Below, in pieces: positions 41,294 to 51,473 of a stretch of 64,000 nucleotides of DNA. The notes below the pieces were generated by a model. The model did no database searches and had not been told where the DNA came from. It worked only from the letters and a program-made list of their open reading frames with translations. The translations under genes and the position numbers were made by a program. Where the stretch lies: contig NZ_CP016312.1 in NCBI RefSeq assembly GCF_001880325.1, positions 558,001 to 622,000 on the forward strand, written 5' to 3'. The DNA is from Thermus brockianus (GTDB lineage: Bacteria > Deinococcota > Deinococci > Deinococcales > Thermaceae). The number at the start of each line of letters is the position of its first letter. The stretch's first letter is position 1.

Positions 41294-41842
41294 CTAGGGC
41301 AGGGTGAGCCAGGGGAAGCGGCGCTTGGTCTCCGGGTCCACGTCCAAAAGCTCCCGGGCCGGCATGCGCACCTGGGGCAGGGTCTTCTGGTTGATGGGCT
41401 CGTCCGCCTCAATGATGCCGTTCATGTAGAGGAGGAAGGCCACCAGGTGGTAGACCTCCTCGTCCGTGAGGGTTCCCGGGGCCCCGAAGGGCATGGCCCG
41501 GCGGATGTAGTCGTAAAGGGTGGTGGCGTAGGGCCAGTAGTTGCCGATGGCGTACTCCACGGGCTCCGTGTCCGGGGTGATGGGGAAGGGCTCGGCCACC
41601 AGGCGGTTAAAGGGGTAGCCCTCCCCCCTGGCCCCGTGGCAAGAGGCGCACTTCTCGGCGTAGATGCGCTCCCCCTCCGCCACCTTTCCCTCCCCCGGGG
41701 GAAGCCCCCGGCCATCGGGCAGGACCACGGGCCTCAGGTCGTACTGGGCGGCGAGCTCCTCGGAAATGGGGGTGCCGAGGCCGTAGCGCGCCCCCAGCGC
41801 CAAACCCAAAAGAGCCACCACGAAGAAGACCTTCTTAGCCAT
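41294..41842 (-). CDS. soxD: SoxD-like cytochrome c subunit of sulfur dehydrogenase
   Basis: A 182-aa secreted mono-heme cytochrome c: N-terminal signal peptide (MAKKVFFVVALLGLALG), heme site CASCH, and Met residues in AMPFGAPG and YMNG as candidate distal ligands. It is shorter than the di-heme Paracoccus SoxD. It follows soxC with an 8-bp overlap, the usual soxCD order. In SoxCD it removes six electrons from the SoxY-bound sulfane. Confidence 0.87.
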   Translation of the reverse strand: MAKKVFFVVALLGLALGARYGLGTPISEELAAQYDLRPVVLPDGRGLPPGEGKVAEGERIYAEKCASCHGARGEGYPFNRLVAEPFPITPDTEPVEYAIGNYWPYATTLYDYIRRAMPFGAPGTLTDEEVYHLVAFLLYMNGIIEADEPINQKTLPQVRMPARELLDVDPETKRRFPWLTLP

Positions 41843-43118
41843 CAAACACCTCCCCGTCGCACCCACCCACGGGGCCCACGGCCCGCACGCCCAGGGGCCT
41901 ATCCCCGTTGACCACCCGGCCATCGGGCAGGATACGCCAGGCCTGGATGGCGTTGTAGTGGTAGCGGTTGTTCTTGCCCCAACGCCGGAAGAACTCCTCC
42001 CGGGTGGGCTGGGTGTTGCCCTTCTCGTCCCAGGCCCGGCTCCAAAGCACCACCTCCTCGCCCCGCCACTGCCAAGGCATCTTGAAGCGGACGAAGGCGT
42101 AGCGCTCCACGGGGGCCTCGAGGGTGGCCTGCCGCCAGGTCCTGCCCTCGTCCAAGGAGATCTCCACCTTGGTGATGCGGCCAAAACCGCTCCAGGCGAG
42201 GCCCCTAATCTCGTGGAAGCCCGGCTTGATCACCTGCCCCCCCGAGGGGTAGGTGACGATGGACTGGGGCTCCATCACCCAGGTGAAGGCGAGGACCTTG
42301 CCGTCCGCCATGACGTCCGTGTACTCGCTGGTTTCGTCCTTGGCCATGGCGGGCTGGTCCGTGACCAGGATACGCCTCAGCCACTTCACCTGGATGCTCC
42401 CCTCCCAGCCCGGCACCACCAGGCGCACGGGATAACCCTGCTCGGGGCGCAAGGCCTCCCCGTTTTGCGCATAGGCCACCAGGACGTCCTCCATGGCCTT
42501 CTCCAGGGGCAGGGAGCGGGTGTACATGGCGGCGTCCATGCCCTCGGGGATAAGCCACCTGGCCCCCGGCTTCACCCCCGCCTCCTTGAGGAGGAGGGCC
42601 AGGGGTACCCCGGTCCAGCTGGCGTTGGAGGCGAGGCCCCGGCTCCGGGTAGCGGTGAGGTTGGGGTCTGGGGGTTCCCGGTAGCCGTTTTGCCCGTTGC
42701 CGGCGCACTCAATGAAGTAGGTGCGGGTCACGGAGGGAAAGCGCTTGAGGTCCTCCAAGGTGAAGACCAGGGGCCTTTCCACCATCCCGTGGATCACCAG
42801 GCGGTAGCTTTTGGGGTCCACCTGGGGCACCCCGGCGTGGTGGCGCTCAAAGTGGAGGCCGTTGGGGGTGATGACCCCCTCCAGCCGCTCCAAGGGGGCG
42901 AAATCCGCCCCCGAGTGGCGGGTGCGCAGGTTGGGGGAGATGTAGCGCACCACCCCTTCCTCAAAAGGGCTTCGGCTCCCGTACTCGGAAAGGGGAGCCC
43001 CCAGGGTCTTGGTAGGGGCGAAGGTCTCCTCGTCCCAAGGGGGTGTCTGGGCCCTGGCCTTGAGGAAGCCGAAGAGGCTTCCTGCCCCCAACAGCCGGAA
43101 AAACTTCCTTCGGTCCAT
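41835..43118 (-). CDS. soxC: SoxC-like molybdopterin sulfur dehydrogenase subunit
   Basis: A 427-aa sulfite-oxidase-family protein exported by Tat (MDRRKFFRLLGAG). The molybdenum-coordinating Cys lies in YFIECAGNGQNGY, and the C-terminal Mo-co dimerisation domain is complete (GFGRITKVEISLDEG). ATG 43118 has GGGAGGG upstream. A strong intrinsic terminator separates it from soxF, so soxCD may be expressed below the level of the rest of the operon. A stand-alone sulfite dehydrogenase is the alternative. Confidence 0.88.
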   Translation of the reverse strand: MDRRKFFRLLGAGSLFGFLKARAQTPPWDEETFAPTKTLGAPLSEYGSRSPFEEGVVRYISPNLRTRHSGADFAPLERLEGVITPNGLHFERHHAGVPQVDPKSYRLVIHGMVERPLVFTLEDLKRFPSVTRTYFIECAGNGQNGYREPPDPNLTATRSRGLASNASWTGVPLALLLKEAGVKPGARWLIPEGMDAAMYTRSLPLEKAMEDVLVAYAQNGEALRPEQGYPVRLVVPGWEGSIQVKWLRRILVTDQPAMAKDETSEYTDVMADGKVLAFTWVMEPQSIVTYPSGGQVIKPGFHEIRGLAWSGFGRITKVEISLDEGRTWRQATLEAPVERYAFVRFKMPWQWRGEEVVLWSRAWDEKGNTQPTREEFFRRWGKNNRYHYNAIQAWRILPDGRVVNGDRPLGVRAVGPVGGCDGEVFDG

Positions 43119-43186: not shown

Positions 43187-44476
43187 TCAGGCGGGGCCGA
43201 ACATGTCGTTCCAAATCCCCGTGGCCCAGCCAAAGGCCGCTTGGCCGTTGGCCTGGGAGCGCTGGTTGTCCACGGCGCTTTGGGCCCGGATCTGCCTGGC
43301 CGCCTCGTCCCAAGAGTAGTTGGCGGAGACCCAGATGGCCTCCTCGGAGTCCACGAAGGAGTAGCAGATGTTCTGGGGAAGCTCGGGGGGGATTTCCGCC
43401 AGGGGCTTGCCCCGAAGCCTTTCCGCCAGGTGCCGGGCCACGATGGTGCCGGAGACGTAGGCCACCATGCCGCTTTTGGGGTAAGGGGTGTTGCCGGTGA
43501 TGTCCCCCACCAGGTAGATGCGGTCGTCCTGCTCGGAGAGGAAGTAGGGGATGCGCACGTTGGCCCAGCGCTCCCCAAGCCCCGCCACCCGGACAAGCTC
43601 CCCCGCCTTCATGGGGGGGATGATGTTGGCAAGGGTAAAGGGCACCTCGCCCAGCTCTGTAAGCACCCGTTTCTTCTCGTAGTCCAGGCCCGTGATGCGG
43701 GTGTTGGGCACATACTCCAGGTAGTCCTTGTAGAGCTCGTTGTAGGCGGCGAGGAAGCCCGGGGCCTTGGAAACGGGCTGGGGATTGGCGTCCAGGACGA
43801 TGAGCTTGCCCTTCACCCCCTTGCTCTTAAGCCGCCAGGCCAGCATGGCCGCCCGCTCGTAGGGGCCCGGGGGGCAGCGGTAGGGAGGGGTGGGAATGTA
43901 CATGACGAGCTCGCCCCCCGTCTCGTCAAACTGGTCCAGCATGCGCCTTAGGGCGATGTGCTCAAAGGGCTTAAAGCCCACGGGCAGGAGGTGCTTGGCC
44001 TCGGCGTAGCCGGGGATGGCCTCGTACATGTAGTCAATGCCGGGGGCAAGCACCAGGAAGTCGTAGGCCAAGTAACCGCCCGTGGTCCGCACCAGGCGGC
44101 GGTCGCGGTTGATGTCCAAGACCTTCTCCTGGACAAAGATCACCCCGTCCTTGACCACATTGGTGTAGTCAAAGACGAGCCACTCCAAGGGCTTGACCCC
44201 CGCCAGGAAGAGGTTGGACATGGGGCAGGACATGAAGATGGGCTTCTGCTCCACCAGGACCACCTCCACGTCCACCCCCGACTGGGCGAGCTTCCGCGCC
44301 ACCGTGGTCCCGCCCCAGCCGCCCCCGATGACCACCACCCGGGGCTTGCGGGTCCGGGGGAGCAGGGTAGCGGGGCGGGCGTAGAACTCCTGGGCGAAGG
44401 CCTTGCCCCCTAAAGCCCCGGCCGCCGCCAGGGCAGCCCCCGTCTTCAGAAGATCCCTCCGGTTCACCTTTCCCAT
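43187..44476 (-). CDS. soxF: SoxF-like flavocytochrome c sulfide dehydrogenase, flavoprotein subunit
   Basis: A 429-aa FAD protein of the FCSD/sulfide:quinone reductase superfamily, exported by Tat (NRRDLLKTGAALA). The dinucleotide fold is VVVIGGGWGGTTVA. Redox Cys residues occur in FMSCPMSNLF and near the C-terminus in QNICYSFVD. It oxidises sulfide or reduces periplasmic sulfur intermediates in other Sox systems. The 3' end abuts a terminator. Confidence 0.88.
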   Translation of the reverse strand: MGKVNRRDLLKTGAALAAAGALGGKAFAQEFYARPATLLPRTRKPRVVVIGGGWGGTTVARKLAQSGVDVEVVLVEQKPIFMSCPMSNLFLAGVKPLEWLVFDYTNVVKDGVIFVQEKVLDINRDRRLVRTTGGYLAYDFLVLAPGIDYMYEAIPGYAEAKHLLPVGFKPFEHIALRRMLDQFDETGGELVMYIPTPPYRCPPGPYERAAMLAWRLKSKGVKGKLIVLDANPQPVSKAPGFLAAYNELYKDYLEYVPNTRITGLDYEKKRVLTELGEVPFTLANIIPPMKAGELVRVAGLGERWANVRIPYFLSEQDDRIYLVGDITGNTPYPKSGMVAYVSGTIVARHLAERLRGKPLAEIPPELPQNICYSFVDSEEAIWVSANYSWDEAARQIRAQSAVDNQRSQANGQAAFGWATGIWNDMFGPA

Positions 44477-44487
44477 AGCTCCCTCCT

Positions 44488-45339
44488 CTATTGGCCAGGG
44501 CGGTAGGGCTCCCCGCCCACGGCTTCCAGGATGCCCGTCATCACCTGCCTGGCCTCTTGGAGCATTGTAACCGCTGGCGAGCCCATGACCCCGGGCATGA
44601 TGGTCATGAGCATGGGCTCAATGGCCCCCACCAGCACATCAGGGCCCATCTGCATGGCGAAGAAGCGGCAAGGGGCGGCGAAACCGCCGGCGGGCTGGGT
44701 GAGGAACATGATCCGGGCCCACTCGCTCTTGCAGGGCATGATCACGGTCACCGGGCCTACCTTCACGTTGGGCAAGAGGTTGAGGCCGGCGGAGGTGAGT
44801 TCGGTCTCCACCATGAGGACCACGTCCTCCACCTTGGCCCCCCGCACCCGGTAAAGGAGGGCGGGCATCATGCCGCTACCGGGGTCCGGCATCATGGCCG
44901 GCGAGACCTTGCGCACCAGGCCGAGCCGGCCCAAGGCCGCCTCGAGGCGCCAGGTGAGCCGTTCCACCTGGCCCCCGTAGACCCCGAGCATGCTGAATAG
45001 GAGCCTTCCGTCAAAGGTGCCCACCAGGTACTTATCCCCTTCCCCGATGATGTAGACCGTGGGGGGCAGGACGATGGCCGCCATGGGGTTCTTGCTCACC
45101 GCCTCCAGGCTCCCCTGCTCCGGCTTCAGAACCACCAGGCGGTAGTCCGGGAAGCCCGGGCCCGTGACCTGGCGCACCTGCTCCCCCAGGTTCAAGACCC
45201 GGTCGGGCTCCAGGCCCACCCCCTTCAGGGCCTCCAGCACCCGGGCTTCCACGCTTTCCAAGCTGCCCTGAACCTGCACCACCAAGGACTGGGCCAAGGA
45301 GAGGCCCAACGCCACCACCAGTGCCAATACCTTTTTCAT
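44488..45339 (-). CDS. Secreted DUF302 domain protein, Met-rich, within sox operon
   Basis: A 283-aa protein with a signal peptide (MKKVLALVVALGLSLAQ) and two DUF302-like halves. The middle and C-terminal parts are Met-rich (AMMPDPGSGMMPAL; EPMLMTIMPGVMG) with two Cys (IMPCKSEWAR, AAPCRFFAMQM). The biochemical role of DUF302 is not settled. Its place between soxF and the rhodanese implies a part in periplasmic sulfur or metal handling. It overlaps the rhodanese gene by 4 bp. Confidence 0.75.
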   Translation of the reverse strand: MKKVLALVVALGLSLAQSLVVQVQGSLESVEARVLEALKGVGLEPDRVLNLGEQVRQVTGPGFPDYRLVVLKPEQGSLEAVSKNPMAAIVLPPTVYIIGEGDKYLVGTFDGRLLFSMLGVYGGQVERLTWRLEAALGRLGLVRKVSPAMMPDPGSGMMPALLYRVRGAKVEDVVLMVETELTSAGLNLLPNVKVGPVTVIMPCKSEWARIMFLTQPAGGFAAPCRFFAMQMGPDVLVGAIEPMLMTIMPGVMGSPAVTMLQEARQVMTGILEAVGGEPYRPGQ

Positions 45340-45767
45340 GTTCCTCCCTCCACTTCCAGGCCGGCGTCCAGCCAGCCCTTGAACCCGTGGGCGATATTCT
45401 TAGCGTTTTTGTAGCCAAGAGCTTGCAAAAAGGCCGCCACCACCGCAGAAACGCTCCCCGAGTTGCAGTAAACGAGGATGAGGGCCTCCTTGTCCTTGGG
45501 GAGCTCCGCCAAGCGGTCCGGCACCTCGCCGGCGTAGATGTGCACGGAGCCCGGGATATACCCCCTTTTCCGCTCCTCCGCCGTGCGCACGTCCAGGATG
45601 AAGGGCTCAAAGAGGAGGAGGTCCTTGGCCTCGGTGGGGTAGACCAGGTAGCTCGCCGGGGGCACGCCTTTCAGAAAGGCCCCAAAGGCCCTCACCCAGT
45701 CCTCCCCTTCCCCCCGGGCCTGGAGGAGGAAAAGGGGCAAAAGGGCAAAGAGGTGGCGGCGGCGCAT
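45336..45767 (-). CDS. Periplasmic rhodanese-domain protein
   Basis: A 143-aa protein with a signal peptide and one rhodanese domain. The active loop is VYCNSGSVSA, whose Cys would carry persulfide sulfur, and LFEPFILDVRTAEE is the domain start. Within the sox operon it may shuttle sulfane sulfur from SoxYZ or SoxA. It starts 2 bp after soxA (copy 2). Confidence 0.85.
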   Translation of the reverse strand: MRRRHLFALLPLFLLQARGEGEDWVRAFGAFLKGVPPASYLVYPTEAKDLLLFEPFILDVRTAEERKRGYIPGSVHIYAGEVPDRLAELPKDKEALILVYCNSGSVSAVVAAFLQALGYKNAKNIAHGFKGWLDAGLEVEGGT

Positions 45768-45769
45768 GG

Positions 45770-46570
45770 CTAGCGGGTGAAGAAGGGCAACTCCTCAAAG
45801 GAGTGCCCGGCTTTGGTAGCCTCGGCCAGCATGTACAGGGTAAGGGCAATGTAGGGCTCGGAGTAGAACTCGGGGGCGGGAATGGCGATGGACTCGTAGC
45901 AGAAGGCGATGCGGTCCTCCATGGTGTAGAGCTTGTCCGCCTCAAAGCGGTAGGCGGGCCACTCGTTCCCTAGGCCCTCCTTGGGGCTCCGCACCGGGGA
46001 AAGCCGCACCCGCCGCCCGGCGTACTGGTCGTGGCAGACGGCGCAGCTCATGTCCCGGGCCCCCGCCCGCTGGTACCAGAGCTCCCGCCCCAGGTTGTAC
46101 ATGGCAAGCTCCACCGGGTGCTTGGGAACCACCTGAATCTTGGCCTTGGAGGAGAAGGAAGCGATGTAGGCGGTAATGGCCTTCACCTCGTCCCGCTTAA
46201 TCTCTTCGGGTTTAAAGCCCTGCACCCGTTGCATGCAGGTGTAGACCCGGGTTTCCAGGTCCTCCACCCGCTTGGTGTCCGGGAAGTACTTGGGCAAGAT
46301 GGCGTAAACCCCTTCCAAGACCCCAGGGCCTTTGCCGAAGTCGCAGGCCTCGAGGGTCTTGCCGCTTGGGCCTTTACGGAAGAAGAGCTCCTTGCCCTCC
46401 TCCACGAAAAGCTCCCCCGGCAGGACCCCGAAGGTTTCCAGGTACATCTGCCGCTGGCGCATGGCCTCCTCAAAGGGGTCCAGGGGCTTCTGCCCTTGGG
46501 TGTAGGCCCAAAACCCTCCAAGGACGCCCAAGGCCGCAAGACCCAGAAGGAGAAGTCGTTTCCTCCGCAC
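45770..46570 (-). CDS. soxA: SoxA, copy 2 (mono-heme L-cysteine S-thiosulfotransferase subunit)
   Basis: A 266-aa secreted protein that with SoxX attaches thiosulfate to the SoxY cysteine. C76 and C112 mark the domain that lost its heme in this mono-heme class. C176AVCH180 binds the active heme, and C224 in MEDRIAFCYES fits the persulfide-ligand Cys. It lies directly after soxX copy 2 (3-bp gap), downstream of soxB. Confidence 0.9.
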   Translation of the reverse strand: MRRKRLLLLGLAALGVLGGFWAYTQGQKPLDPFEEAMRQRQMYLETFGVLPGELFVEEGKELFFRKGPSGKTLEACDFGKGPGVLEGVYAILPKYFPDTKRVEDLETRVYTCMQRVQGFKPEEIKRDEVKAITAYIASFSSKAKIQVVPKHPVELAMYNLGRELWYQRAGARDMSCAVCHDQYAGRRVRLSPVRSPKEGLGNEWPAYRFEADKLYTMEDRIAFCYESIAIPAPEFYSEPYIALTLYMLAEATKAGHSFEELPFFTR

Positions 46571-46573
46571 GGC

Positions 46574-47134
46574 TCACCTCCGGTTGATGGGGGACTCGGG
46601 GTCCAAGAGGAAGGCCACCAGATCGGCGGTTTCCTCCGGGGTGAAAAGCCCATGGACCCCGCCCCGGTACATGAGGGAGCAGGGGACGAAGGCCCAGGCG
46701 TTGTAGATCTTCTCGTAGGTGTAGCGCACCACCGCCTCTGCGGTGCCCCGCTGGCCGTAGCCCGTGAGGCTTGGCCCCATGGTGCCGTGGGCCACCTCGT
46801 TGGGGTCCCCGGCGTGGCAGGCGTAGCAGTTGCCCCGCCTGGGATCGGTGAAGACCTTCTCCCCGTTTTTCCAATCCCCCATGAGCTTCCCGTTGGCCGG
46901 GTACTTAATCAGGGCCTTCTGCTCCGCCAAAAACTGCGGGATGAGGTCCGGGGGAAGCTTGTCCCGGTACTGGGAGCAAAGGGCCTGGGCCTTGTCCTGG
47001 GAAAGCATGACCTGGGCGAACTCATGCCCTCCCGAGTGTAGGGCGGCCTCGAGGCGGGCTCGGAAAGGACCCGCCTGGGCAAGGACGAGGCCGAGAAGGA
47101 TAAGCCCTAGCGCCGCAATGCCTATTCGCTTCAT
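46574..47134 (-). CDS. soxX: SoxX, copy 2 (cytochrome c subunit)
   Basis: A 186-aa secreted mono-heme cytochrome with signal peptide MKRIGIAALGLILLGLVLAQ, heme motif CYACH, GTMGPSL after the heme, and probable Met ligand in PCSLMYR. The N-terminal helical extension (about 25-85) is shared with copy 1. It overlaps soxB by 4 bp. Confidence 0.9.
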   Translation of the reverse strand: MKRIGIAALGLILLGLVLAQAGPFRARLEAALHSGGHEFAQVMLSQDKAQALCSQYRDKLPPDLIPQFLAEQKALIKYPANGKLMGDWKNGEKVFTDPRRGNCYACHAGDPNEVAHGTMGPSLTGYGQRGTAEAVVRYTYEKIYNAWAFVPCSLMYRGGVHGLFTPEETADLVAFLLDPESPINRR

Positions 47135-48852
47135 CCCATCACCTCCGGTATCCGGTAGTTACGGCCCAACACCTTCACGTTGGGCTCGGGCACCACCCTG
47201 ACCCGCCCAACCCCCTTCAGGTACTCCTCCAGTACGGCATAGATGGGCCTGGGCTCGTGGCCCGGCTTGGCCTCCCCAAGCCGCTGGAGCCTACCCCCAT
47301 AGGCCGCCACCAGATAACGGCGGTCCGGCTCCAAAGCCTTACCCCCCACGGACACCTCCCGCACCCGCTTGCCCGTGGGGGCGTCGGGGTCCAGGACGTA
47401 GGAAAGGCCAAAGGTCCGGCTCACATCCCCCCCTTGCTGGTAGAAGGGGTCAGGGGTAAAGACGTTGCTGGCGATGTCCTCCAAAACGCTCTGGATTTGC
47501 GCCCCCCGCAAGTAGAAGAGGTAAAGCTCGGGATAGGTGAAGCCGGTGTAGGCGTAAAGGTGGTCCCGGGTAATGGCCTGTCCCGGGAGCAACGTGGTGC
47601 CCCAGCGCACCGCCGGGCTAAAGACCACCTCCACCTCCGGATAAAGGGCCCTTACCGCCTGACCCACCAGCTGGTCCCAGGTGGAGTACAGGGTATCCCG
47701 CTTGTAAAGGAGGGTTTCCGTAACGGCTAAGGGCGCAAAGAGGTGCTCCCGGTGCGGGGCTACCTTTTCCCTAAGCCACGCCTCCACGTCCTCCGCCTTG
47801 GGCAGGTGGTCCGCCAAAACGGGCAGGACCCGCACCCGGAGGTTGGCGAGGCCGCCTTTCCTCAGCTTTAGGTCCAACCGCATCAGGGCTTTGCCGGCGG
47901 CGCTTCCCGCCACGATCCAGGTCTTGCCCACCCGCCAGGGCAAAGGGGTCAGGTCGTGGGTATGGCCGGAAAGGATCAGGTCAATGCCCCGGATGCGCTC
48001 CGCCAAGGCGGCGTCCAGCTGCATGCCTTGGTGGGAGAGGAGGACCACGGCGTCCGCCCCCTCGGCCCGGGCGGCGTCCACCGCCTCCTGCAGGCGCTTC
48101 TCGTCCAGGGCAAAGGAAAGCCCCTCGGTCAAGCTTTCCGGGTGGGATACCTTCACGTACGGGTAGGCCGCCCCCACCACGGCCAAGGTGTAGCGGCCTG
48201 CGGGATGGAGCCGGTAGGCGGGGAAAAGGGGGTCGCCGAAGAGTTCGTCCACCACGTTATAGGCCAGGTGCTCCCCGCGGAATTGCCCCAAAAGGGCCTC
48301 CACCCGCTCCCGCCCCAAGGTCCACTCCCAGTGGGAGGTCATGTGGTCTACCCCCGTGAGGTTCTGCCACTCCACCAGGGCTTCCCCTTGGGTGAGAAGG
48401 GAAAGGCCGGAGTTGGTCCAGGTATCCCCCCCGTCCAGGACCAGGACCTTGGCCCCTTCCGCCTCCGCCCGGGCCTTTTGGTCGCGGATGAGGGCGGTGA
48501 GGGCGGAAAACCCCCCTATAGGGCCGAAGGCGCGGGCAAGGGCCACAAAGTCCAGGTGGGAGAGCAGGTACGCAAGGGGCGTTCCCCTCCCCACCCCGTA
48601 GTAGCGGAGAATGGCCTCCCCCGTGAGGTAACCGGGCCGCCCCATCAAGGCCTTGGGGGCGATGAGATTAGGGGGCTCCATGAAGTAGTGAGGAAAGGCT
48701 TGGGCGTGGAGGTCGGAGAAGTAAAGGAGGGTGGCCTCCCCATAGGGGGGAAGCTCGTAGAGGCGGGCCGGGTTTTCCAATACCTGGGCGAGGGCCTTGG
48801 GCCCCAAGCCCGCAAGGGTGGAGAGGAGAAAAAGGACGTCCCTACGGTTCAT
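47131..48852 (-). CDS. soxB: SoxB thiosulfohydrolase
   Basis: A 573-aa dimanganese hydrolase of the 5'-nucleotidase/metallophosphatase superfamily that releases sulfate from SoxY-thiocysteine-S-sulfate. Metal-binding segments LDGGDTWTNSG, TSHWEWTLG, LLSHQGMQLD and LILSGHTHDLTPL are in order, with a C-terminal substrate domain. The export signal has a twin Arg (NRRDVLFLLS). It is the centre of the A-X-B-X-A gene order, overlapping both neighbouring soxX genes by 4 bp. Confidence 0.96.
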   Translation of the reverse strand: MNRRDVLFLLSTLAGLGPKALAQVLENPARLYELPPYGEATLLYFSDLHAQAFPHYFMEPPNLIAPKALMGRPGYLTGEAILRYYGVGRGTPLAYLLSHLDFVALARAFGPIGGFSALTALIRDQKARAEAEGAKVLVLDGGDTWTNSGLSLLTQGEALVEWQNLTGVDHMTSHWEWTLGRERVEALLGQFRGEHLAYNVVDELFGDPLFPAYRLHPAGRYTLAVVGAAYPYVKVSHPESLTEGLSFALDEKRLQEAVDAARAEGADAVVLLSHQGMQLDAALAERIRGIDLILSGHTHDLTPLPWRVGKTWIVAGSAAGKALMRLDLKLRKGGLANLRVRVLPVLADHLPKAEDVEAWLREKVAPHREHLFAPLAVTETLLYKRDTLYSTWDQLVGQAVRALYPEVEVVFSPAVRWGTTLLPGQAITRDHLYAYTGFTYPELYLFYLRGAQIQSVLEDIASNVFTPDPFYQQGGDVSRTFGLSYVLDPDAPTGKRVREVSVGGKALEPDRRYLVAAYGGRLQRLGEAKPGHEPRPIYAVLEEYLKGVGRVRVVPEPNVKVLGRNYRIPEVMG

Positions 48853-49423
48853 CTAGACCCCACCGCCGGCTTGGTGTTGAACTCGGATTCCGGGTCCAAA
48901 AGGTAGGCCACCACGTCAGCGATCTCCTCGGGGCTAAGAAGGCCTTGGGCGCCGAAGCGGTACATCACCGTGCAGGGGAAGTAGGCCCACGCGTTGTAAA
49001 TCACCTCATACGTGTAGCGCTGTACCGCTTCCGATTGGCCCCTCTTAAGCCCATACTTCTCCAAGCTGGGCCCCACGTCCCCCCAAGGTGTACCGGGGAT
49101 CCGAAGTGGCAGGAGAAGCAGTTGGCCTTTTGCAGGTTGTTGAAGATGGCCCCGCCCTTCTTCCAGTCCCCCATTAGCCTCCCGTTCTGCGGGTACTTGA
49201 TGAGGGCCCGCTGCTCCTCCAGGAACTGGGGTAGGAGGTCGGCAGGTAGGCGGTTTCGGTGGAGGGAACAAAGGGCCTGGTCCGGGCGCTGGTTTTGGAA
49301 GACCCCCGCGTAGGCCTTACCCCCGCTTTGAATGAGCTGAAGCTCCTTCTCGCTAAAGTAGCGCTGGGCCAAGCCCCAAGCTACCAAGGAAAGAACCGAG
49401 AGGACCAAAATAGCCTTCTTCAT
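48849..49423 (-). CDS. soxX: SoxX, copy 1 (frameshifted in this sequence)
   Basis: A second SoxX-type cytochrome. The first frame gives a signal peptide, the N-terminal extension and heme site CFSCH. The frame is lost at the six-base run 49079-49084 (G6 on the coding strand). The C-terminal part in the adjacent frame (GDVGPSLEKYG, Met ligand region PCTVMYRFGAQG, LLDPESEF) aligns directly with copy 2. One extra G gives a normal 191-aa protein. It lies between soxA copy 1 and soxB. Confidence 0.85.
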
Positions 49424-49432
49424 GCTCCCTCC

Positions 49433-50212
49433 TCACCGCACAAAAGCGGGCCACTCCTCCACCACCGCCCCGTTGTTGTGATAGGCCAGGAAGAGCTCCA
49501 AGGCGAGGATGGGCAAAGAGTAGAGGTCCGGCTGGGGGTGGGCGATGTTGCCGTAGCAGGCCCGGATGCGGTCCTGCATGGTCCAGGTCTGGTCGTTGGA
49601 GTAGCGGTACGCAGGCCAGTGGGTCCAAGACTGATCCTTGCCCAGCACGTCGGCGTAGGGCAGGACGCCAGCCCGCTTGCCCACGTAGGTCACGTGGCAG
49701 GTGGCGCAGCCCACATCCCTGGCCCCGGTGCGGGCGTAGAAGAGCTTCTCCCCGAGGGCATAAAGCTCCTTCTCCTGGGGGAAGAGGAGGCGGACGTTAA
49801 TCCTATGGCCTGTGGACTTGCTGGCGATGTAAAAGGCCACCGCCACCACCTCGGACCGCTTCACCGCTTCCCTTGGGAATCCCTGCACCTTGGTCATGCA
49901 GGTGAGGATGCGGTGATCCAGGTCCTCCACCCGGCCCGTGTCCAGGAAATAGCGGGGAAGCCGGGCTGCTGCCCCTTCCAAGACCCCTTTTCCCAGGCCG
50001 AAATCGCATTCGGCCATGGTCTTGCCGCTAGGGCCTTTCCGGTGGAAAAGCTCCTCACCCTGCTGGACCACGAGCTCCGTGGGCAGGATGCCTGCGGTCT
50101 GGAGGAGGAGCTCCTTTTGCCTTTTGGCCTCCTCCCGGGGGTCTACCTCTTGGGCCAAGCCAAGGAGCAAAAGAAGGGCCGCACCTACCACCCACCACGC
50201 CTTGGGCCGCAT
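49433..50212 (-). CDS. soxA: SoxA, copy 1 (mono-heme L-cysteine S-thiosulfotransferase subunit)
   Basis: A 259-aa SoxA paralogue with a signal peptide. C69 and C105 are the relics of the lost heme domain, C169ATCH173 binds heme, and C219 in MQDRIRACYGN is the presumed persulfide ligand. It is clearly homologous to copy 2 along its whole length but diverged. It follows soxZ after a strong hairpin and has its own GGAGG site. Confidence 0.92.
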   Translation of the reverse strand: MRPKAWWVVGAALLLLLGLAQEVDPREEAKRQKELLLQTAGILPTELVVQQGEELFHRKGPSGKTMAECDFGLGKGVLEGAAARLPRYFLDTGRVEDLDHRILTCMTKVQGFPREAVKRSEVVAVAFYIASKSTGHRINVRLLFPQEKELYALGEKLFYARTGARDVGCATCHVTYVGKRAGVLPYADVLGKDQSWTHWPAYRYSNDQTWTMQDRIRACYGNIAHPQPDLYSLPILALELFLAYHNNGAVVEEWPAFVR

Positions 50213-50227
50213 ATATCCACCTCCATA

Positions 50228-50253
50228 AAGGCGCCCGGGAATCCGGGCGCCTT
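50228..50253 (-). terminator. Intra-operon hairpin between soxZ and soxA copy 1
   Basis: AAGGCGCCCGG (50228-50238), loop GAAT, CCGGGCGCCTT (50243-50253): an 11-bp perfect stem ending in only a short U stretch (TTT) on the minus strand. It probably acts as a partial terminator or a 3' stabiliser for the soxW-Y-Z mRNA. Confidence 0.6.
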
Positions 50254-50256
50254 GCC

Positions 50257-50583
50257 TTAGGCCAGCTCCAGCTTGACCTGAGCCTCCCCCGTGTCGCCGC
50301 TGGTGTCCTTAAGCTTCACCGTGAAGGTCCCCGGCTTTTCCGCCTTGAACTTGAAGCCGTAAAGGGGGTTGGCGCTGGTGGAGGGGCCAGGCCGGGCCTC
50401 CGCCACCTTTTCCCCTTCAAAGTAGACCTCCACCAGGTTGATGTAATTGGCGGGGATGAGGTTACCCTGGGCATCCCGGCGGGTGCCAGGTTCGTTGGGA
50501 TGCTGGGCTACCGCCTGGAGCCGGAACTCCTCTCCCGCCTTGGGCTTGGCCGGGGTCAGGCGAACGATGGTGCGGATGGGCAT
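50257..50583 (-). CDS. soxZ: SoxZ, sulfur-carrier complex subunit
   Basis: A 108-aa immunoglobulin-like protein without a signal peptide, exported as a complex with Tat substrate SoxY. The N-terminus (RTIVRLTPAKPKAGEEF) and the segment ending in the beta-strand TFTVKLKDTSGDTG are typical. It is preceded by an AGGAGG site and lies 16 bp after soxY. Confidence 0.95.
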   Translation of the reverse strand: MPIRTIVRLTPAKPKAGEEFRLQAVAQHPNEPGTRRDAQGNLIPANYINLVEVYFEGEKVAEARPGPSTSANPLYGFKFKAEKPGTFTVKLKDTSGDTGEAQVKLELA

Positions 50584-50599: not shown

Positions 50600-51052
50600 T
50601 TAACCGCAGCCCCCCACGGTAACGCGGGTGCTGGCCGAGGCCAGAAGCAACTTGCCGTCGGCGGTCTCCACCACGGCCCGGACAGCGGTGGTCTCCGCCA
50701 GGCGGACCCGGGTGGCGTAGTAGGGAAGGGCCTTCATGGGCATGAAGGTCACCAACCGGGGCGTGGGGTTCTTGTCGGCGAAGAGGTGGATGGCCTTGAC
50801 CTGATTGGAGGGCAGGCTCACCTCCACCTCGGCGGGCACGTTGGCCCCGCTTTCGGCGATGGCGGGCATGGTGAGCTTCACCAGGTTGGAGGGGGTGAGG
50901 TCCTTGAAGCCCTTGCCCAAGGCCTCCTGTAAGGCCTTCTCCAGGTTGGCCAGGTCCTCCCCTTCCAGCCCTTGGGCCATGGCCGGTAGCCCCGCCACGG
51001 CGAGGGCGGAAAGGGCCACACCGGTTGCCTTCAAAAAAGCTCGCCTATTCAC
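50600..51052 (-). CDS. soxY: SoxY, sulfur-carrier protein
   Basis: A 150-aa protein with a Tat signal (NRRAFLKATGVAL) and the sulfur-carrying Cys at the very C-terminus, ending VGGCG; the common ending is GGCGG. Sulfur intermediates stay bound to this Cys through the SoxAX, SoxB and SoxCD steps. GTG 51052 has GGAGG 5 nt upstream and overlaps the thioredoxin gene by 8 bp. Confidence 0.94.
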   Translation of the reverse strand: MNRRAFLKATGVALSALAVAGLPAMAQGLEGEDLANLEKALQEALGKGFKDLTPSNLVKLTMPAIAESGANVPAEVEVSLPSNQVKAIHLFADKNPTPRLVTFMPMKALPYYATRVRLAETTAVRAVVETADGKLLLASASTRVTVGGCG

Positions 51053-51473
51053 ACACACCTCCCTTGGCGCACATCTGGCGCAACTCCATGAGGAACTGCG
51101 CCCGGGGCCGGCTGCCAAAAAACCGGCCCACCTCTTCCCACGCCCCCTTCCTGGGGACGAGGAAGACAAAGGTGGGGGTGCCCGGCACGCGGAAGCGCCG
51201 GGCCAGGTCCTGCCCCTCCGGGGTTTCCGTGCCCACGGAGGCCACCACGAAGCGCTCCTCCAAAAGGCGGCTTACCCCAGGATCGGAGAGGACAAAGGTG
51301 TTCATCTGGTCGCAGTAGGGGCAGTGGGGGCTATGGAAGTACACCATGAGGACCCGGGTGTGCTCCTGGGCCAGGACCTGGGCCTCACGGAAGGGATACC
51401 AGCGGCCAAAATCCGGCGCGGCCAAGGCCAGGCCCATCAGCAGCGTCAGCCAAAGTACCCGGTACGCGTACAT
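51045..51473 (-). CDS. Periplasmic thioredoxin of the SoxW/SoxS type
   Basis: A 142-aa secreted thioredoxin fold: signal peptide, active site SPHCPYCDQM, cis-Pro in VPGTPTFVFLVP, and a second Cys pair near the end (CAKGGVCE). In other Sox systems such thioredoxins keep SoxY reduced. It is the first gene of the sox operon, with CcdA as its likely electron source. Confidence 0.85.
   Translation of the reverse strand: MYAYRVLWLTLLMGLALAAPDFGRWYPFREAQVLAQEHTRVLMVYFHSPHCPYCDQMNTFVLSDPGVSRLLEERFVVASVGTETPEGQDLARRFRVPGTPTFVFLVPRKGAWEEVGRFFGSRPRAQFLMELRQMCAKGGVCE

Follow-up and report, generated by a model that had tools for sequence, protein, structure and literature searches.

Two diverged SoxAX pairs around soxB in Thermus brockianus and other Thermaceae, and their possible roles on a single SoxYZ carrier

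Introduction

In the sox cluster of Thermus brockianus two soxA and two soxX genes lie around soxB in the symmetric order soxA1-X1-B-X2-A2, which raises the question of whether the two SoxAX pairs do the same job or two different ones. How SoxAX works and which substrates it accepts are unsettled matters, in part owing to the difficulty of studying the enzyme mechanistically (PMC4423706) and to its being required under conditions in which the current model would not need it (PMC5336275). The duplication itself is not new: the 13-gene cluster of T. brevis PS18, which is highly expressed on thiosulfate, contains two copies each of soxA and soxX that are around 50% identical (PMC13019369), and in T. 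thermophilus HB8 the genes TTHA1422 to TTHA1410 follow the order soxW-Y-Z-A-X-B-X-A-sulfurtransferase-hypothetical-FCC-C-D, with both pairs derepressed together (PMC10318464). However, in the accessible part of the first report the copies are not compared by phylogeny, domain, loss pattern or active site, and in that of the second the first pair is annotated only as L-cysteine S-thiosulfotransferase and the pairs are not compared. The system had originally been predicted to be under-described, which no longer holds for the existence of the copies or, from what is available of these reports, for their co-regulation, but does hold for their roles, since our literature search found no work separating the functions of two SoxAX pairs.

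Results and discussion

Organization of the sox locus

The window analyzed here comprises 64,000 nucleotides of the T. brockianus genome (NZ_CP016312.1, positions 558,001 to 622,000). The five genes soxA1-X1-B-X2-A2 occupy positions 50212-45770, all on the minus strand, and were found as originally predicted, within the minus-strand order soxW-Y-Z-A1-X1-B-X2-A2-rhodanese-DUF302-FCC-soxC-soxD-ccdA (Table 1). SoxXA, SoxYZ, SoxB and SoxCD are all present, which makes this a complete Sox system with SoxCD, with X2A2 intact and X1 frameshifted. The cut-off for SoxX (TIGR04485, 61 bits) was passed by X2 and, despite the split, by the C-terminal fragment of X1 (64.6 bits). The two SoxA proteins are 50% identical (E 6e-82) and the two SoxX proteins 51% identical over the 100 residues compared. 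The haem and Met ligands previously noted in both SoxX copies occupy positions that are kept in the X1 and X2 families alike.

Table 1. Features of the sox locus in the window (positions of the window; statements taken from PMC10318464 rest on the part of that report that is accessible).
Feature	Position	Strand	Remarks
soxY	50600..51058	-	Sole SoxY carrier of the genome, GGCG arm; TIGR04488 142 bits, cut-off 125
soxZ	50257..50583	-	TIGR04490 93 bits
soxA1	49433..50212	-	Mono-haem SoxA; TIGR04484 221 bits, cut-off 110
soxX1	48849..49423	-	Two frames (frameshift); TIGR04485; stop overlaps soxB start
soxX1 frameshift site	49079..49084	-	Run of 6 G on coding strand (C6 forward)
soxB thiosulfohydrolase	47131..48852	-	TIGR04486 701 bits
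soxX2	46574..47134	-	TIGR04485 86 bits; start overlaps soxB stop
soxA2	45770..46570	-	Mono-haem SoxA; TIGR04484 229 bits, cut-off 110
Rhodanese-like protein	45336..45767	-	PF00581 66 bits; directly after A2 in Thermaceae (synteny)
DUF302-like secreted protein	44488..45339	-	PF03625 weak, E 9e-4; labelled translation initiation factor 2 in other annotations
Flavocytochrome c sulfide dehydrogenase-like flavoprotein (FCC/SoxF)	43187..44476	-	Synteny; annotation of TTHA1412 (PMC10318464)
soxC	41835..43118	-	Synteny; TTHA1411 (PMC10318464)
soxD	41294..41830	-	Synteny; TTHA1410 (PMC10318464)

The arrangement had been described as a mirror-image duplication, a misleading term: a literal mirror duplication or inverted repeat is ruled out by the copies not being on opposite strands, and as nothing is inverted the locus has a symmetric gene order and no inverted repeat.

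Two further elements of the locus were observed. The X1/B (48849-48852) and B/X2 (47131-47134) junctions are ATGA overlaps in Thermus, of the type associated with translational coupling. Between soxZ and soxA1 there is a GC-rich hairpin (50229-50252), found in nearly all Thermus with varying loops, with the same shape and another sequence in an Allomeiothermus genome (G023, locus L065), and retained ahead of X2 in the Thermus genome G049 described below; none was evident in Meiothermus-type genomes or in f4 (see below). This hairpin may set the ratio of SoxYZ to SoxAX.

A variable A1-X1-B unit beside a constant X2-A2 pair

Conservation was evaluated in the genomes with SoxA, namely 45 of Thermaceae and two of another family of the same order (hereafter f4). 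The A1-X1-B-X2-A2 order was found in 42 of the 45 sox-bearing Thermaceae, 39 of them with a contiguous cluster (window included) and three with the cluster split over contig ends, a recurrence that is not attributable to chance. In a plasmid collection the order appeared once more, in Allomeiothermus silvanus and in no other organism, while a scan of genome contigs gave matches from Thermus only and two scans of viral contigs gave no SoxA. All copies are under purifying selection, with dN/dS values of 0.17 for A1, 0.17 for X1, 0.19 for B, 0.23 for X2 and 0.21 for A2.

The order is altered in three genomes, all of Thermus (G049, G054 and G055). G054 and G055 have lost A1-X1 and retained SoxB: an in-frame deletion has fused codon 42 of A1 to the 13 final codons of X1, leaving the soxB overlap unharmed. 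In G049, a 99% complete genome, A1, X1 and B are gone, no SoxB was found anywhere in the genome, and X2-A2-rhodanese-DUF302-FCC-C-D remain. This is not a primitive state, since an X1-like tract persists inside X2 and an A1-like start in the DNA preceding X2, which indicates that the A1-X1-B unit was lost there. The two f4 genomes (G017 and G020, loci L088 and L089) have a W-Y-Z-X-A-C-D cluster with FCC, in which X-A is of the X2-A2 type; A1 and X1 are missing, and SoxB was not found in these genomes (84% and 71% complete). All sox-bearing genomes examined therefore retain X2-A2, and what varies between them is A1-X1-B or its A1-X1 part. Given that these genes disappear together and X2-A2 does not, the symmetric order is best interpreted as an A1-X1-B unit placed beside an X2-A2 pair. 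The absence of A1-X1-B from f4 may mean loss there or, instead, that the unit was gained as a cassette.

The number of carriers was also considered. One SoxY gene was found per genome in the seven genomes searched (7/7), which makes it most likely that the two SoxAX enzymes share a single carrier; as a matter of anatomy, the earlier proposal of two SoxAX enzymes on one SoxYZ stands. A single-copy SoxY would also suit a division by carrier state, with one pair priming bare SoxYZ and the other loading SoxY that already bears sulfane sulfur. Bare SoxYZ lies outside the main pathway and has to be activated, and SoxAX was unexpectedly required for the thiosulfate-independent oxidation of sulfane-bearing SoxYZ (PMC5336275). 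Reconstitutions with the Paracoccus pantotrophus proteins, however, run on one SoxAX, and we consider this reading improbable, the least likely of those discussed here.

Two observations concern variation elsewhere in these clusters. SoxB of G057 and G071 (loci L051 and L064) is of a different type, 62% identical to that of the window, as against more than 80% for most Thermus, and groups apart from the main Thermus SoxB, which suggests either replacement or retention of an old type. Plasmid pMESIL01 of A. silvanus carries at the start of its record (L066) a second, partial copy of the cluster, consisting of the end of A2, rhodanese, DUF302, FCC, soxC and soxD.

The reading frame of X1 in T. 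brockianus

The frameshift predicted in X1 is present in the sequence: the run at 49079-49084 has six G, and seven are needed for the frame that is conserved among all relatives read. A programmed frameshift is ruled out, since none of the relatives read at this site is out of frame. The assembly of strain GE-1 is based on PacBio data only, with a stated QV50 (PMC5292009), which makes a homopolymer error quite possible; real decay is plausible as well, because the nearest relatives, G054 and G055, have deleted A1X1. If real, the frameshift would also break the X1-B overlap (gap 148). That A1X1 is already broken in this strain, X1 being truly frameshifted and A1 bound to follow, is distinctly possible in view of the missing G and of these relatives, yet we lean against it, considering that A1 is intact, that the gap sits in a G homopolymer of a PacBio-only assembly and that X1 is whole in all other genomes that have it complete. 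This estimate is separate from those given for the functional readings and is compatible with any of them.

Age of the two copies

In the SoxA tree A1 forms one clade and A2 another, each extending across the family, which rules out a duplication within Thermus. SoxA of f4 was sister to A2 (98/93), and forcing A1 and A2 together was 8.6 lnL units worse (p-AU 0.03). In the SoxX tree f4 fell outside X1+X2, and a grouping of f4 with X2 was not rejected (p-AU 0.15). With only one, long branch as outgroup, the root is uncertain. The phylogenies support a split of A1 and A2 that would be older than the genera of Thermaceae and, going by the SoxA tree, older than the separation from the sister family, in agreement with the old, well-diverged duplication originally predicted.

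Concerted evolution of the SoxA N-terminal domain

The divergence is not uniform along SoxA. Within one genome, the identity of A1 and A2 amounts to 55-86% over the N domain and to 39-46% over the C domain, and over columns 70-94 paralogues of the same genome are 71-82% identical, compared to 43-64% for Thermus/Meiothermus-type orthologues. Slower evolution alone is ruled out as the origin of this likeness, since paralogues exceed orthologues in identity. Informative columns that group the sequences by genus number six in the N domain and none in the C domain, while those grouping them by copy number three and 22, respectively (Fisher p 1e-4); in line with this, the tree of columns 62-120 divides by genus (89/98), and A1 monophyly was 22 lnL units worse (p-AU 0.049). 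The N domain of A2 in G071 is for the most part 86-100% identical to that of the A1 in the same genome, including a 60-bp tract of identical DNA, and the likeness falls near column 140, the breakpoint, to the level of other A2 sequences. This is a clear gene conversion, limited to the N-terminal half of SoxA. An X1-like tract within X2 was seen in G062 and G069 as well as in G049.

As judged from these alignments, the two SoxA copies undergo concerted evolution in the N-terminal domain and have diverged deeply in the catalytic domain, a feature described here for the first time. Gene conversion would keep the N-terminal domains alike and the catalytic domains would be held apart; a common interface with SoxX is one possible reason for the homogenization.

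The divergence of the catalytic domain bears on the possibility that both pairs carry out the same transfer of thiosulfate to SoxYZ and are kept for dose or robustness, one being droppable at little cost. Both are under the same operon control, as in a regulator mutant of T. thermophilus TTHA1419/1418 rose 25-33 fold and TTHA1416/1415 16/9 fold, according to the accessible part of PMC10318464; the cluster is strongly expressed in T. brevis grown on thiosulfate (PMC13019369, likewise as far as accessible); and G054 and G055 dropped A1-X1 and kept SoxB. On the other hand, pure redundancy seldom retains two copies throughout a family, and the catalytic domains of A1 and A2 are only around 42% identical, with fixed differences, compared to 63-73% for Thermus-Meiothermus orthologues. 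Redundancy of this sort seems rather unlikely, albeit the second most likely of the readings.

Active site and type of the two enzymes

Both SoxA copies had been said to keep the haem site and a putative persulfide Cys, which is the active Cys (C219 in A1, C224 in A2), and this is general: the CxxCH haem site and the distal Cys ligand are present in 41/41 A1 and 44/44 A2 sequences. The relevant residues are C169-C172-H173, C219, R215, R203, S205 and G182 in A1, and C176-C179-H180, C224, R220, R208, R189 and E210 in A2. The proteins belong to type II (mono-haem SoxA), with an N domain devoid of CxxCH, a retained Cys pair (C69/C105 in A1) and PDB 3OA8, the type II SoxAX of Starkeya novella, as best PDB match. 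The latter is the best fold match of the predicted A1 and A2 (TM 0.77-0.80 by target) and the top sequence match of A1 and X2, and shares with them the mono-haem SoxA and the N-terminal extension of SoxX, but its SoxA is only 36-40% identical to A1/A2 in the fold alignment. The predicted structures have low pLDDT at the active-site loops. To our knowledge, Starkeya novella has no second SoxAX pair.

Thiosulfate is held in TsdA by Arg109 and Arg119; SoxA has Lys or Ser at the first of these positions, Arg at the second, and another invariant Arg (PMC4423706). TsdA of Allochromatium vinosum has a homologous catalytic domain with a Cys-ligated haem (PMC4423706), but matches the predicted folds only weakly (E 0.04 and 0.009) and joins two thiosulfates without SoxYZ. 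Positions were assigned by their distance from the Cys, with an inferred offset of 26 residues for Arg232. On this basis, the residue 14 before the active Cys, which corresponds to the first thiosulfate position, is Ser in 41/41 A1 and Glu in 44/44 A2, while the positions equivalent to Arg119 of TsdA and Arg232 of R. sulfidophilum SoxA are Arg in all A1 and A2. The sequences place a fixed Ser (A1) or Glu (A2) at the putative Lys/Ser position of SoxA, a difference that is new here. A1 has Gly (G182) where most SoxA, including A2 (R189), have Arg, and therefore is not simply canonical.

Glu is also found at the thiosulfate position in four SoxB-less plasmid clusters (Methylobacterium, Roseomonas and two of Neorhizobium), the residue being Lys, Ser, Thr or Ala in clusters that do contain SoxB; this association amounts to about two independent origins. 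SoxA of f4 has Ser at this position, and Thr in place of the Arg equivalent to R. sulfidophilum Arg232, which is called invariant. In three plasmid loci (L133, L134 and L136) a SoxB-less soxX-Y-Z-A, whose SoxA has Glu, adjoins genes for a (2Fe-2S)/molybdopterin enzyme and a flavoprotein, and the carrier, where so annotated, is of the SoxY-related type with an AACIE arm.

A possible division of labour

The gene content, conservation, loss pattern, domain-wise evolution and residue differences described above would fit two complete type II SoxAX enzymes acting on one SoxYZ. A1X1 travels with SoxB, as an A1-X1-B unit with overlapping stop and start codons, and its pocket, at the position that differs, would resemble the one in the Starkeya type II enzyme. 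It would most likely join thiosulfate oxidatively to SoxYZ, and SoxB would then hydrolyse the resulting S-thiosulfonate. X2A2 travels with rhodanese, DUF302, FCC and SoxCD and has the fixed Glu where this enzyme family would hold thiosulfate. It would most likely load or process another sulfur donor, such as sulfide-derived sulfane, or polysulfide, supplied by FCC, and might not depend on SoxB.

The divergent catalytic domain and the fixed Ser/Glu difference only suggest different substrates for A1X1 and X2A2. We tentatively favour the assignment of thiosulfate, with SoxB, to A1X1 and of another donor to X2A2, which we put at nearly an even chance, above any of the other readings; both the activity and the substrates are inferred. 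The full proposal, in which A1X1 would be dedicated to thiosulfate and tied to SoxB, X2A2 would be a SoxB-independent loader of sulfide-derived sulfur marked by Glu, and the N domain would be shared through gene conversion with the catalytic domains apart, is considerably more doubtful and, taken whole, unlikely. Against divided donors, f4, which also lacks SoxB, has Ser at the Glu site and has lost an otherwise conserved Arg. In addition, SoxB has X2A2 as the only intact pair in G054, G055 and possibly in the window strain, so that X2A2 may also serve thiosulfate.

The assignment could likewise be the reverse, X2A2 being the general thiosulfate loader and A1X1 a specialized, dispensable accessory. 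The universal retention of X2A2, even in genomes without A1X1, and the presence in it of the Arg missing from A1 would agree with this, but X2A2 is kept in the SoxB-less G049, where the usual processing of the S-thiosulfonate could not take place, and A2 has Glu at the thiosulfate position. We find this reversal unlikely, a little more so than redundancy, although less so than a division by carrier state.

Returning to divided donors, nearly all the sulfur-oxidizing relatives of T. brockianus in the Thermaceae carry two SoxAX enzymes, and there are hints that these do two different jobs. A natural, heat-stable SoxAX pair with one shared carrier, in organisms whose close relatives grow on thiosulfate, offers a direct route to the specificity of SoxAX for donor and carrier state, with a handful of residues as targets for exchange in laboratory enzymes and with gene disruption already done in T. 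thermophilus HB8, as described in the accessible part of PMC10318464. If the proposed division is true, Glu at the thiosulfate site would mark SoxB-independent SoxAX more widely.
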